Origin: Rhodovulum kholense
Lineage (GTDB): Bacteria; Pseudomonadota; Alphaproteobacteria; Rhodobacterales; Rhodobacteraceae
DNA: 64,000 nt
NCBI RefSeq assembly: GCF_003053725.1
Contig: NZ_QAYC01000002.1
Coordinates: 186,001-250,000 of the forward strand
Reading direction: 5' to 3'
Shown here piece by piece: positions 59,645 to 64,000 of the stretch (position 1 is its first letter; every line of letters begins with the position of its first letter). Both the position numbers and the translations under genes were made by a program. Under the pieces are notes generated by a model. That model worked only from the letters and a program-made list of their open reading frames with translations. It did no database searches and was not told the DNA's origin.

Positions 59645-60898
59645 CTAGAGCGGCCGCGCCTGTTCGTAGCCGCGCGCAGAGACGCCGCGCGGCGTTGTCA
59701 GCAGGTGATCGGGGGTCAGACGCAGGGTGTCCATCGCGATCATCCGCTCTTCGTCGGTGGGCACGACAAGGGTCGCGACCGACGCATCGGCAGCGCTGAT
59801 GTTCGGATAGCCGTCGCGCGCCACCTCGTTCGTGGCCTCGTCGATCCGGACGCCCAGGAAGCCCAGCCCCGAACAGATCCGGGTCCGGATCTCGGCGCTG
59901 TTCTCGCCGATGCCTGCTGTGAAGACCAGCGCGTCGAGCCCGTTCATCGCGGCCGCATAGGCGCCGATGGTCTTCTTGATCTGATAGACGAAGATCTCGA
60001 CCGCCAGCCTGCACCGCTCGTCGCCGTCAGCCGCCCGCGTGGTCACCTCGCGCATGTCGTTGCTGACGCCCGAGACGCCCAGAAGCCCGCTCTTGTGATA
60101 GCAAAGCGTCTCGACGTCCTTCAGGCTCATCCCCAGCTGATTGACCAGATGGAAGATGATCGACGGATCGAAATCGCCCGACCGGGTGCCCATGGGAACG
60201 CCCCCGAAGGTGCCGAACCCGATCGAGGTATCGACCGACCTGCCGCCATCGACCGCGGTCAGCGTCACGCCGTTGCCCAGATGGCAGATCACCATCTTCA
60301 TGTCCTCGATGGGCCAGTTCAGCAGATCGGCCGTGGCCTGGCTGACATATCGGCAGGACGTGCCGTGAAAGCCGTATTTCCGGATGCCGCTCTTGGCATA
60401 AAGCGCGTAGGGCAGCGCATAGACATGCGCCTCGGGCGGCACGGTCTGATGGAACGCGGTATCGAACACCACGATGTTCGGGACGCCCGGGAACAGACGC
60501 ATCGCGGCCTCGATACCCGCGATGTTGCAGGGATTGTGCAGCGGCGCAAAGCCGACGCAGGCCCGCAGCTGGGCCATGACCGCGTCATCGACCACGACCG
60601 AGTCGACGAAAACGTCGCCGCCATGGACCGCGCGATGGCCGATGGCCGTGATGGCCGCCGGGCAGTCGATCACGCCATAGTCGGCATGCATCAGGCTGGC
60701 CAGCATCAGTTCAAGCGCGGTCTTGTGATCGGGCACCGGAAGCTCGACCTTCTCGCCGCGGCCTCCGGCCTTGTGATCCGAATAGGAGCCGTCTTCGCCG
60801 ATCCGGGCGATCAGACCCTTCGCCACGACTTCGGACAGATCGGTCGTGTAAAGCTGATACTTCAGGCTGGAACTGCCGCAGTTGATGGTCAGGATCAT
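59645..60898 (-). CDS. ackA: Acetate kinase
   Basis: Cytoplasmic kinase of 417 residues, making ATP from acetyl phosphate (or propionate equivalents). Motifs: LTINCGSSSLKYQLY at the N-terminus, VHGGDVFVDSVVVDD, YGFHGTSCRYVSQ, NGVTLTAVDGGRSVDTSIG and FTAGIGENSAEIR. ATG 60898 follows AAAGGACG. Its position after the membrane protein gene, in a unit facing the glycyl radical enzyme genes, suggests substrate-level phosphorylation in that pathway. No phosphotransacetylase gene is in the window. Confidence 0.95.
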   Translation of the reverse strand: MILTINCGSSSLKYQLYTTDLSEVVAKGLIARIGEDGSYSDHKAGGRGEKVELPVPDHKTALELMLASLMHADYGVIDCPAAITAIGHRAVHGGDVFVDSVVVDDAVMAQLRACVGFAPLHNPCNIAGIEAAMRLFPGVPNIVVFDTAFHQTVPPEAHVYALPYALYAKSGIRKYGFHGTSCRYVSQATADLLNWPIEDMKMVICHLGNGVTLTAVDGGRSVDTSIGFGTFGGVPMGTRSGDFDPSIIFHLVNQLGMSLKDVETLCYHKSGLLGVSGVSNDMREVTTRAADGDERCRLAVEIFVYQIKKTIGAYAAAMNGLDALVFTAGIGENSAEIRTRICSGLGFLGVRIDEATNEVARDGYPNISAADASVATLVVPTDEERMIAMDTLRLTPDHLLTTPRGVSARGYEQARPL

Positions 60899-60927
60899 GG
60901 TGTCGTCCTTTCTTTGAAACAGCAAGG

Positions 60928-60978
60928 ACGGGCGGCGCGACGGGGGGGAGGGTGGGAGGAGGGTGTCGCGCCGCCCGT
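60928..60978. other. Long hairpin with G-quadruplex loop before ackA
   Basis: A perfect 14-bp inverted repeat (60928-60941 with 60965-60978) flanks a 23-nt loop (60942-60964) that on the + strand is four G-runs separated by 1-4 bases, a canonical G-quadruplex motif. It lies between the membrane protein stop (61010) and the ackA ribosome site, so it is within the leftward transcript, where the loop is C-rich. No T-run follows. A role in transcript processing, attenuation or transcription-coupled structure is inference. Confidence 0.7.
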
Positions 60979-61009
60979 TCGGGGTGCAGGGTGTCGGTCT
61001 GCCCCCGGA

Positions 61010-61921
61010 TCACACCGGCAGTGGGAGGAGAGCCCAGAAGCCGATGGAAGTCAGTACGTTGAAGACCAGCGTCATGGCCGCGATAGTGCAGGCCGGCGGG
61101 TCGATATGGGTGTCGCCGCGGTCGAGGAAGACCCGGGCGAAGAATTCGCCCACGAAGGCGCAGACCAAGCCTGCGATGCCGGCCCAGAGGATGCTGCCCG
61201 AGGCCACGCCGACGATGGCGGCCGGCAGGGCGATGTGGTGGGTCACCGGGGTCAGAACGCCGACCGTCAGGAACAGCAGGCTCGCGGCGGCGATGCCGAA
61301 GGCCAGCAGCGCGCCAGCGGTGCCGTAGGTCACGCCCAGCCAGCCGCCCAGCAGTCCGACGCCGATGCCGATCACGGCGATCTGGCCAAAGCTGCTCTGG
61401 AACACCAGCCATTTGGTGGCATCGGTCGGGTGGAAGAACCGCTCGCCCTCGGGCGTTTTCCCGCACAGGCCGCAGGTGCCCCAGAGAAAGCGCACGATGA
61501 AGGCCGAGATCACGACGCTCATGCCGGGATAATCGGTCCAGGGCAGGCCCGGACCCACATCGGGCACCATCGCGACGCCCCAGCAGATCACGTAGCCGAC
61601 GATCCCGAAGATACCGCCGACCAGCAGCACGTCGGGGCTGTTCAACCCCATGCCCGCCGTCACGATGTTGCGGCCGCTGTCAAGCTTGCCCTTCGAGGCC
61701 GCATAGGCCGCGGCGGCGACGCCCGAGGCGAACCCGCCCACATGCGGGCCGAAGACGCCGAACGGGATCCCGAAGAAGTCGGTGGCCGCGGGTGCGACCG
61801 CCAGCTGGATCGCGACGCCCGCGATCGTCAGGATGCCCACGAAGGCGAAGGCCGGCAATGCGCCGATCGCCGCCCCGAAGATGCCGCCTCCGAAGGCGAC
61901 CAGTAAACCGAGTGCAGTCAT
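61010..61921 (-). CDS. Unknown multi-pass membrane protein
   Basis: Protein of 303 residues with about eight hydrophobic segments. No characterised family recognised. Features: FGPHVGGFASGVAAAAYAAS near residue 60-80, a cytoplasmic-looking loop TCGLCGKTPEGERFF (CxxC) at about 149-163, and PVTHHIALPAAIVG later; the polar His and Asn residues in or beside helices suggest a transport path. The gene stands first in the leftward unit with ackA, opposite the glycyl radical enzyme genes. I infer it may import or export a substrate or product of that pathway. Confidence 0.75.
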   Translation of the reverse strand: MTALGLLVAFGGGIFGAAIGALPAFAFVGILTIAGVAIQLAVAPAATDFFGIPFGVFGPHVGGFASGVAAAAYAASKGKLDSGRNIVTAGMGLNSPDVLLVGGIFGIVGYVICWGVAMVPDVGPGLPWTDYPGMSVVISAFIVRFLWGTCGLCGKTPEGERFFHPTDATKWLVFQSSFGQIAVIGIGVGLLGGWLGVTYGTAGALLAFGIAAASLLFLTVGVLTPVTHHIALPAAIVGVASGSILWAGIAGLVCAFVGEFFARVFLDRGDTHIDPPACTIAAMTLVFNVLTSIGFWALLPLPV

Positions 61922-62647
61922 TTATTCCTCCTTGCAACGCAATCGACATTCCTCACGCGAAATCCTCGAAGGAGATTTACGCGTTCGCCTCGATTCCGCT
62001 TCCAAGTTCGCATGTCGATTTTTTCGGTTTCCACTTGCTTCGCACCCGCGCCCGTTTTTCGAAACGCAGGTTGCCGACTCCGGAAAAGCCAAAAGCCCTC
62101 CGGTTGGTTCAAACTGCATCCCCCGATATGTTGATATCGAAAGCGAGTCCCGAATTCGGGTGCGTCGTCGAAAATAATGTTGATCGAATTGACTCGGCCG
62201 GTCAACGCGGGGAACTTGGCCTCCGGTGGTAATTTCTTGCCGGAGCCGGAGGAGGCCCGAAATTCGCCCTCCGGGGTCCCCGGAATCGGCCTGCCGCAGC
62301 AGCATCGCGCCGATTTTATTTTTCAATTACGTAATCTTATGAAGAACGCGCGAGTCCCCCGGCACCTCCCGAAGGCCCTGTCCGACACGCCCCTGCCCGG
62401 TTCCGACCGAGGTTACCTTGTCCTCCCGATGACAAGAATTTACCGGTCCGCGTAATTTCTTGTCCTCCCGGCCGATTGCACGCCGCGGCCGGCCGGCGCC
62501 AAACCCCTTGTTTTCAAGAGCGATGCGTCCGATTTGCTGCCGCCGTCAAAGGATTACCCGTCATTGTCAAACCCTTCGCGTTGCTGACGGCCCCTGCAAA
62601 ACCCTATTCTCTCTTCAACGACGCGGCCAATCGCGAAGGAAATGGAA
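61922..62647. other. AT-richer divergent intergenic region before glycyl radical genes
   Basis: 726 bp with no convincing gene, clearly less GC-rich than its flanks. It must carry promoters for both units and perhaps a long leader. It contains an ATTACGTAAT palindrome (62326-62335), the repeats listed next, and TTGAC-N7-GTCAA at about 62190-62206. I could not match an FNR or CRP consensus exactly. Confidence 0.55.
62229..62470. repeat. Short repeated motifs in the divergent promoter region
   Basis: GTAATTTCTTG occurs at 62229-62239 and 62452-62462. CTTGTCCTCCCG occurs at 62417-62428 and 62459-62470, 42 bp apart. GACAAG at 62431-62436 makes inverted pairs with both CTTGTC copies; GACAAGAATTTAC (62431-62443) against GTAATTTCTTGTC has one mismatch. 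The clustering suggests multiple binding sites for one regulator. Confidence 0.5.
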
Positions 62648-63238
62648 ATGCCCGGCTCCTCGAAAAAGAAAATCCTCATGATCGTCGGCGACTATTCCGA
62701 AGATTATGAAGTGATGGTTCCCTTTCAGGCGCTTGGAATGGTCGGTTTCCAGGTCGACGCGGCCTGCCCGGGAAAACGCGCGGGCGACACCATAAGGACC
62801 GCGATCCACGATTTCGAGGGCGACCAGACCTATAGCGAAAAACCCGGTCACCTGTTTCATCTGAACGCCGCCTTCGGGCTGATCGAGGCGGACGCCTATG
62901 ACGGCCTCTACCTCGCCGGAGGCCGGGCCTGCGAATACCTGCGGCTCGACGAGGACGTGCTGGCGCTGACCCGCACCGTCATGGAGGCGGACAGGCCGGT
63001 CGCGGCGATCTGCCATGGCCCGCAAATTCTGGCCGCCGCCGGCGTTCTCGCCGGTCGCCGCCTGACGGCCTACCCGGCCGTCGCCCCCGAGATCCGCGCC
63101 GTCGGCGGCACCTATGTCGCCGTCGCGCCGGAAAACACCGTGATCGACGGAAACCTCGCGACGTCTCCGGCTTGGCCCGGACATCCGGGACTGCTGCGCG
63201 CCTTCGCGCGCCAGGTGGCCCCCGACCTCGCGATCTGA
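62648..63238 (+). CDS. DJ-1/PfpI-family protein
   Basis: Cytoplasmic protein of 196 residues of the DJ-1/PfpI superfamily. The nucleophile C122-H123 is in [12 protein letters not shown] (nucleophile elbow), with acidic residues in [13 protein letters not shown] and [14 protein letters not shown]. Members act as glyoxalases, deglycases or hydrolases; a role in removing reactive aldehydes is plausible next to a diol-dehydrating enzyme. I choose ATG 62648, 7 bp after AAGGA; an ATG 6 bp earlier is too close to it. The glycyl radical gene follows after 59 bp. Confidence 0.87.
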
Positions 63239-63297
63239 AGCAATCGGCGCCGGCGGGCCGCGAGGGCTCGGCGGGGCATCACAGCCTGGAGGAAATC

Positions 63298-64000
63298 ATG
63301 ATTGAGAAGGGCTTTACGAAACCGACGGACCGCGTGATGCGGCTCAAGTCCCAGATCATCCACGCCCGGCCCTATGTCGAGTCCGAGCGTGCGGTTCTGG
63401 CGACCGAAGCCTACAAGGCAACCGAAGGGCTGCCTGCGATCCTGCGGCGCGCCAAGGTGGCCGAGAAGATCTTCAACGAGCTTCCCGTGACCATCCGCGA
63501 CGACGAGCTGATCGTCGGCGCGATCACCAAGAACCCGCGCTCGACCGAAATCTGCCCCGAATTCTCGTTCGACTGGGTGGAAGCCGAGTTCGACACCATG
63601 GCGACCCGCGTCGCCGACCCCTTCGAGATCCCGAAGGAAACCGCCGCCGAGCTGCATGAGGCCTTCAAGTACTGGCCGGGCAAGACGACCCAGGCGCTTG
63701 CCGCGTCCTACATGTCGAAAAAGGCCCATGATTGCATGGCCAACGGCGTGTTCACCGTCGGCAACTACTACTTCGGCGGCGTCGGCCATGTCTGCGTGGA
63801 CTACGGCAAGATCCTCAAGATCGGTTTCCGCGGTGTCATCGAACAGGCGATCAAGCTGCTTGAATGCCTCGACGAGAAAGACCCGGGCTTCATCAAGAAG
63901 AAACAGTTCTACAACGCGGTCGTGATCTCCTACAACGCCGCGATCAACTTCGCCCACCGCTATGCGGCGAAGGCGGAAGAGCTGGCCAGGCAGGAATCGA
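63298..64000 (+). CDS. Glycyl radical enzyme, glycerol/diol dehydratase type (N-terminal 234 residues)
   Basis: Open to the window edge; full length should be near 780-800 residues. Begins at ATG 63298 after TGGAGG. From memory, the first 180 residues align without gaps to the B12-independent glycerol dehydratase of Clostridium butyricum, including VESERAVLATEAYKATEG, PAILRRA and RDDELIVG, then VFTVGNYYFGGVGHVCVDYG, where H164 and D168 fall at the glycerol-binding positions. Isethionate lyases and choline lyase differ here as far as I recall. The active-site Cys and the glycyl loop lie off the edge, so the substrate is not proven. Needs an activating enzyme, not in view. Confidence 0.85.
   Translation, partial: MIEKGFTKPTDRVMRLKSQIIHARPYVESERAVLATEAYKATEGLPAILRRAKVAEKIFNELPVTIRDDELIVGAITKNPRSTEICPEFSFDWVEAEFDTMATRVADPFEIPKETAAELHEAFKYWPGKTTQALAASYMSKKAHDCMANGVFTVGNYYFGGVGHVCVDYGKILKIGFRGVIEQAIKLLECLDEKDPGFIKKKQFYNAVVISYNAAINFAHRYAAKAEELARQES

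Follow-up and report, generated by a model that had tools for sequence, protein, structure and literature searches.

Which system do the genes at the right end of a 64,000-nt stretch of the Rhodovulum kholense genome belong to, where a kinase gene and a membrane protein gene are transcribed away from a DJ-1/PfpI gene and the beginning of a glycyl radical enzyme (GRE) gene? This stretch, hereafter the window, is G000:C2:186001-250000 in an assembly of 4.46 Mb and 51 contigs, and its genes were called from open reading frames together with Pfam and NCBIfam searches at a family threshold of E ≤ 0.001. We find that these genes form the left edge of a complete locus of 19 genes that is almost certainly a GRM3-type (grp-type), B12-independent microcompartment for 1,2-propanediol. 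The system is already known, gene order included, and a locus of this type is ordinary and understood.

The four genes lie where the initial annotation had placed them. On the minus strand are an acyl (acetate/propionate) kinase at 59645..60898 (ATG at 60898; Pfam Acetate_kinase, 3.3e-138) and an integral membrane protein of 303 aa at 61010..61921, and on the plus strand a DJ-1/PfpI-family protein at 62642..63238 (PfpI, 1e-45) and the N-terminal part of the GRE at 63298..64000 (ATG at 63298; PFL-like, 9.4e-66 for the part within the window). The GRE is cut by the window end, and its reading frame continues without a stop to G000:C2:251835, giving 845 aa in total. The two gene pairs do diverge from a common region, which spans 720 bp between the start codons (61922..62641) and not 726 bp as had been given. 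The closest named record among those that we met is Rhodovulum visakhapatnamense JA181, with identities of 100% for the membrane protein and 99% for the GRE.

Right of position 64000 we found all the components that the initial annotation had suggested looking for, namely an activase, an aldehyde dehydrogenase, a phosphotransacylase and microcompartment shell genes, and they support the oxygen-sensitive glycyl radical route that it had proposed from a diol through aldehyde, acyl-CoA and acyl-phosphate to an acid and ATP. The GRE gene is followed, all on the plus strand, by genes for an iron alcohol dehydrogenase, a BMC-H shell protein, the BMC trimer PduB, a BMC protein ending in a long Ala/Glu/Pro-rich tail, PduL, EutJ and a 263-aa protein, and then by genes for an EutN/CcmL vertex protein, an HbpS/DUF336 protein, an acylating aldehyde dehydrogenase that matches its family from residue 106 on, and a further BMC protein. 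The right end of the locus holds a radical-SAM activase, an S-adenosylmethionine (SAM) synthetase (MetK), a PocR-domain histidine kinase and a response regulator whose DNA-binding domain is of the AraC type. Family models were matched by the shell proteins, PduL, both dehydrogenases, EutJ, EutN, HbpS, MetK, the PocR kinase and the regulator (HTH_18). The complete GRE matches PFL-like at 2.3e-247 and Gly_radical at 8.2e-37, and it is accompanied by a cognate activase (PFLE_PFLC, 1.5e-109). The shell set comprises PduB (2e-128), three single-domain BMC proteins and the vertex protein (EutN_CcmL, 6.5e-28), and all five BMC domains found in the genome belong to this locus.

We assign the locus to the GRM3/grp type because of its gene-by-gene match to grpA-grpS, the catalytic motifs and internal insert of its GRE, and its shell and enzyme families. 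A 19-gene propanediol locus, grpA-grpS, is annotated in RefSeq for Escherichia coli ATCC 11775, and in one-way BLASTP each of the 19 genes has as its best match a different one of these, with identities from 20.8% (a flavoprotein) to 86.5% (a shell protein); the GRE is 75.5% identical to GrpM over 849 aligned positions and the DJ-1/PfpI protein 59.0% identical to GrpL. The acylating aldehyde dehydrogenase, PduL phosphotransacylase, alcohol dehydrogenase and acyl kinase expected of a GRM3 locus are all present. Accessory genes of this type include acetate kinase, a peptidase, a flavoprotein, EutJ, SAM synthetase, DUF336 and a two-component pair (Axen 2014). This set is complete here if the weakly matching flavoprotein is accepted and the "peptidase" is taken, as we read it, to be the DJ-1/PfpI protein.

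Several observations weigh against this assignment. The 263-aa protein is the weakest of the 19 matches (20.8% to GrpD, E = 3e-6) and is without a Pfam match. The broad subfamily TIGR01774 is the one NCBIfam model that the GRE passes, each listed equivalog match being below its cut-off, and 1,2-propanediol dehydratase activity is predicted from the sequence. Finally, the genome encodes a second AckA (C25:29315-30481, 38.6% identical to the locus copy), which is 42.0% identical to GrpG of E. coli, so that the locus kinase, at 39.7%, is no closer to GrpG; the locus kinase may be an independent recruitment.

That no described system with this exact gene set was known from Rhodobacterales, as the initial annotation held, is not supported. 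The four genes recur in the same arrangement on two Rhodobacter capsulatus contigs (L024 and L025); the 20.9 kb that we retrieved hold 13 of the 19 genes in the same divergent order, the other six lying outside that stretch, with identities to the present locus of 84% for the GRE, 74% for the membrane protein and 70-71% for AckA. A 15-gene cluster of this kind, rcc_02199-rcc_02213, has been published for R. capsulatus (PMC5359404). We infer that the cluster is the same locus as that of the two contigs; the term "acetate kinase" is absent from the text of that paper, so that the kinase and the membrane protein may or may not be among the 15. Judged by its description, the GRM3 locus of Rhodopseudomonas palustris BisB18 is also alike, with a GRE carrying an internal encapsulation peptide, an acylating aldehyde dehydrogenase with a long N-terminal extension, PduL and an activase (PMC5311937). 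The E. coli ATCC 11775 locus has counterparts for all 19 genes. It runs in one direction, kinase and grpO included, whereas in the present locus these two genes are divergent. A grp locus has reportedly also been treated in E. coli CFT073 (Lundin 2020, as cited in a review). The Pdu microcompartment shares the carbon route and shell logic but uses the B12-dependent dehydratase PduCDE. Two separate features of these loci deserve mention. The tailed shell protein (L002:9329-10075) has a long C-terminal tail rich in Ala, Glu, Pro and Ser, and its E. coli counterpart GrpS (181 aa) is likewise longer than one BMC domain; and in E. coli ATCC 11775 intron-like maturase and reverse-transcriptase genes (L052:21392-22480) lie between grpO and grpP.

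The GRE retains Cys433 in the motif GCVEP and Gly821 in GYSAQF, which we take to be the thiyl and glycyl radical sites, respectively, and its motifs GVGHV, SSGHS, TEGWHD and YNDEVI show few changes when aligned with the glycerol and diol dehydratases of solved structure. It also contains an insert of ~50-60 residues at about 590-645 that is missing from the glycerol dehydratase of Clostridium butyricum (1r8w) and from 9rco; in alignment numbering, which is one above the protein's own, residues 588-648 are unmatched in 1r8w and 591-641 in 9rco, where the gap could reflect an engineered deletion. An insertion of ~60 aa is typical of GRM3, 4 and 5 (PMC6325248), and for GRM3 it is described as an encapsulation peptide (PMC5311937, PMC6325248). 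The insert found here agrees with that insertion, and we predict that it targets the enzyme to the shell. The GRE near GrpO in Afifella marina (L032) was considered as a second GRM type and dismissed, being an ordinary pyruvate formate-lyase (TIGR01255, 1169 bits).

Taken together, these genes suggest the following route. In R. kholense 1,2-propanediol would enter the cell, probably through the membrane protein, and inside the protein shell the activated GRE would dehydrate it to propionaldehyde, with SAM for the activase supplied by MetK. The acylating aldehyde dehydrogenase would convert propionaldehyde to propionyl-CoA and PduL would convert this to propionyl-phosphate, from which the divergently encoded GrpG-type kinase would form propionate and ATP, while the iron alcohol dehydrogenase would form 1-propanol and regenerate NAD+. 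The PocR-domain kinase and the AraC-type response regulator probably turn on both divergent operons through a common operator. The initial designation of the kinase as an acetate kinase holds for its family and it is the counterpart of GrpG; the product is most likely propionate, and since the genome holds a second AckA, the locus copy is probably the dedicated propionyl-phosphate kinase and would in use be a propionate kinase. Between grpO and ackA, a 111-bp spacer (60899..61009, minus strand) folds as RNA into a GC-rich hairpin with a 12-bp stem (minimum free energy -52.3 kcal/mol, z = -6.4, with 0 of 200 shuffles as low), perhaps an attenuator or an mRNA-stabilizing element tuning the level of the kinase.

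The membrane protein, which the initial annotation had called uncharacterized and of an unknown transporter-like kind, has a named counterpart: it is 52.8% identical over 301 aligned positions (E = 4e-100) to a protein of E. coli ATCC 11775 that RefSeq annotates as GrpO, propanediol utilization system permease. All 34 relatives found at ≥53% identity are encoded beside microcompartment shell genes. With a Citrobacter grpO as query, 536 of 5,426 complete E. coli genomes match over ≥80% of it, and the 20 matches listed are all named GrpO. A GrpO homolog is also present in two B12-dependent PduCDE microcompartment loci, those of Siculibacillus lacustris (L026) and A. marina (L032). Sequence searches at E ≤ 0.001 assign GrpO to no Pfam or NCBIfam family; at E ≤ 10 Pfam returns just DUF7134 (0.013) and DUF7313 (0.3), both below cut-off and without UT (PF03253) in these two rows, and no PDB sequence matches at E ≤ 10. 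Among structural comparisons, Foldseek alone found nothing at E ≤ 0.001 for the GrpO models; the rows that it ranked first, with TM values under 0.25, were mostly MFS-type transporters (MCT, OCT and others), joined for the second model by ClC chains. The top structural neighbors of the two models, weakly, are urea channels (UT/SLC14) and also Amt/Rh channels; the models share alignment rows and are hence not independent. Profile comparisons lent no support to an internal N/C repeat (probability 0.5%), to similarity with UT (hhalign score 13.8, where ten column shuffles scored 13.2-15.8 and the reversed alignment scored 19.0) or to similarity with Amt, although UT compared with Amt failed the same test, which is hence blunt. 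The presence of GrpO in two B12-dependent propanediol loci, together with the weak nearness of its models to urea channels, hints that it is a 1,2-propanediol permease or facilitator. The diffusion facilitator of Salmonella, PduF, belongs to another family.

Relatives of GrpO also occur elsewhere. In Bacteroidota, a GrpO-like protein lies in a conserved cassette with an iron alcohol dehydrogenase, a DeoC-type aldolase and an FGGY (xylulokinase-like) kinase (~6000-11000 in L043, L044, L045, L047, L050 and L051), and no shell-protein matches were found at these six loci. In genome G066, a 33-residue match to the GrpO C terminus stands at one contig end (L008, the end of C7) and a full GrpO at another contig end, reflecting either an assembly edge or a second copy.

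The divergent region carries two promoters of one architecture, in which CAAGAAANTACC is followed by a half-site at +21, a -35 element at +34 and a -10 element near +58. In the window the grpO/ackA module, on the minus strand at 62200..62239 (G000:C2:248200-248239), matches the pattern with 0 mismatches (CAAGAAATTACC, CAAG at +21, TTGACC at +34), and the pfpI/GRE module on the plus strand at 62547..62610 consists of CAAAGGATTACC, CAAA at +21, a weak -35 element TTGCTG at +34 and the -10 element TATTCT at +58 (module score 17). Between them lie two operator-like 12-mers, CAAGAATTTACC at 62433..62444 (plus strand) and its inverted partner CAAGAAATTACG at 62451..62462 (minus strand). We compared 19 divergent GrpO/PfpI regions, those of the window and 18 of the 20 loci L009-L028; L019 and L026 were left out, no upstream PfpI having been found, and L019 has the exact 12-mer nonetheless. 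Some of them are near-copies (window/L009, L014-L017, L022/L023 and L024/L025); the 12 representatives are <60% alike. At ≤2 mismatches GACAAGAAANTACC occurs 37 times, in 16 of the 19 regions, against a mean of 0.3 and a maximum of 1 in 20 dinucleotide-preserving shuffles. Of the 19 regions, 18 have on the GrpO side CAAGAAANTACC (15 without mismatch and three with three), CAA(G/A/T) at +21 and TTGACC or a one-base variant at +34; the scan let the first distance vary over 20-22 and the second more widely, and all 18 gave the same pair. T-A-N-N-N-T follows at +58, the window's own -10 element being degenerate (AACATT). The same geometry, weaker, is found 80-129 bp before PfpI in all 19 regions, with scores of 15-22. 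Against 380 shuffles preserving base but not dinucleotide composition (maximum 17, 99th percentile 16), the module scores above all shuffles on the GrpO side of 18 of the 19 regions and on the PfpI side of 14. Over the 12 representatives, pairwise identity of the 40-bp GrpO-side module is 69% versus 27% in both flanks, a figure that is partly due to construction, the regions having been anchored on the 12-mer, the half-site and the -35 element; the -10 element, which lies outside the anchoring, is conserved too (T in 11, A in 12 and T in 10 of 12).

Conservation of the module is weakened by this anchoring and by individual regions that fit poorly. Three (L012, L021 and L028) have no GACAAGAAANTACC match in the scan, and the GrpO-side 12-mers with three mismatches are those of L012, L018 and L021. 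The null maximum is not exceeded by L028 on its GrpO side (17), nor on the PfpI side by L012 (15) and by the window, L018, L021 and L022 (17 each). In the whole genome, CAAGAAATTACC at ≤1 mismatch has five matches, three of them, including the sole exact one, within 235 bp here; as the reversed control has three, it is the clustering and not the total that stands out. The full pattern at ≤2 mismatches occurs in 5 of 292 genomes of the order (reversed control, 1) and is exact only in the window. The other four, with two mismatches, are taken as chance because those genomes yielded no GRE of this kind. In G066, which carries the locus, the full pattern gives no match. The 40.9-kb E. coli stretch has one CAAGAAANTACC-like match (1 mismatch), inside grpQ, and none upstream of genes. 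GACAAGAAATTACACC, which differs at one position from the 12-mer of the alphaproteobacteria, stands in a like place in four enterobacterial loci that are related to one another (L035:16017, L036:15865, L037:15711 and L038:12686), there without the +21 half-site and the -35 element.

How far do other explanations account for these data? It is highly improbable that the locus serves to ferment glycerol via 3-hydroxypropionaldehyde, with a glycerol dehydratase as its GRE. The second-best solved relative of the GRE is indeed the C. butyricum glycerol dehydratase (1067 bits), ahead of the Roseburia inulinivorans diol dehydratase (952 bits), and the best one, 9rco (1432 bits), is named just "Glycyl radical protein" and does not decide the substrate. 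However, the C. butyricum enzyme lacks the insert of ~60 residues, and the gene-by-gene match is to a propanediol locus. Moreover, the GRE of the R. palustris GRM3 locus is a specific 1,2-propanediol dehydratase, and the enzymes of that locus turned 1,2-propanediol into propionyl-CoA and gave no detectable CoA-thioester product from glycerol (PMC5311937).

The reading of GrpO as an importer has to be set against export of the acid product (propionate) or the alcohol, which we consider unlikely. The gene for AckA, the kinase making the acid, adjoins that of GrpO in 14 of 22 alphaproteobacterial loci (L009-L029 and L032; in L028 and L029 it is on the opposite strand), while in some of the remaining loci the retrieved stretch stops too early to judge (that of L018 after about 0.4 kb). 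In enterobacteria, by contrast, grpO follows the activase and not the kinase in 10 of 12 loci (L033-L042), and the dehydrogenase, aldolase and kinase beside the Bacteroidota relatives leave no obvious propionate step. As for the promoter module, AraC-family activators use half-sites 21 bp (two turns) apart abutting the -35 element; because the half-sites here are so arranged and the locus itself encodes an AraC-type response regulator, that regulator probably reads the module. This arrangement also argues against RegA or another global regulator as the reader, as does the scarcity of the 12-mer, since one would expect more sites for a global regulator than five in 4.46 Mb, three of them within 235 bp. 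Repression of the R. capsulatus cluster by RegA under anaerobic conditions (PMC5359404) speaks for such a regulator, which we nevertheless think improbable.

Assigning GrpO and the module to the locus itself leads to a joint proposal that we offer tentatively and regard as rather more apt to fail than to hold as a whole. GrpO would be the first member of a class of facilitators not yet described, which resemble urea channels and admit small neutral diols. It would take the place of PduF without being homologous to it, serving glycyl-radical and B12-dependent propanediol microcompartments as well as the Bacteroidota kinase-aldolase-alcohol dehydrogenase cassette. In Alphaproteobacteria, expression of GrpO and of the whole organelle would be set by one conserved module, CAAGAAANTACC-9-CAAR-9-TTGAYC-18-TANNNT, and the PocR kinase and AraC-type response regulator encoded in the locus would read it. 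Our literature search returned nothing on transport by GrpO or on this operator, from which we do not claim absence from print.

As found, the locus extends a known propanediol microcompartment to one more genome and is of little consequence in itself. The transport mechanism of GrpO and the conserved operator/promoter module may provide fresh leads as modest, testable extras. If true, the former would explain, in a way that can be tested, how these organisms take up the diol, and the latter would supply a defined promoter/operator with which to drive or silence alphaproteobacterial microcompartments.

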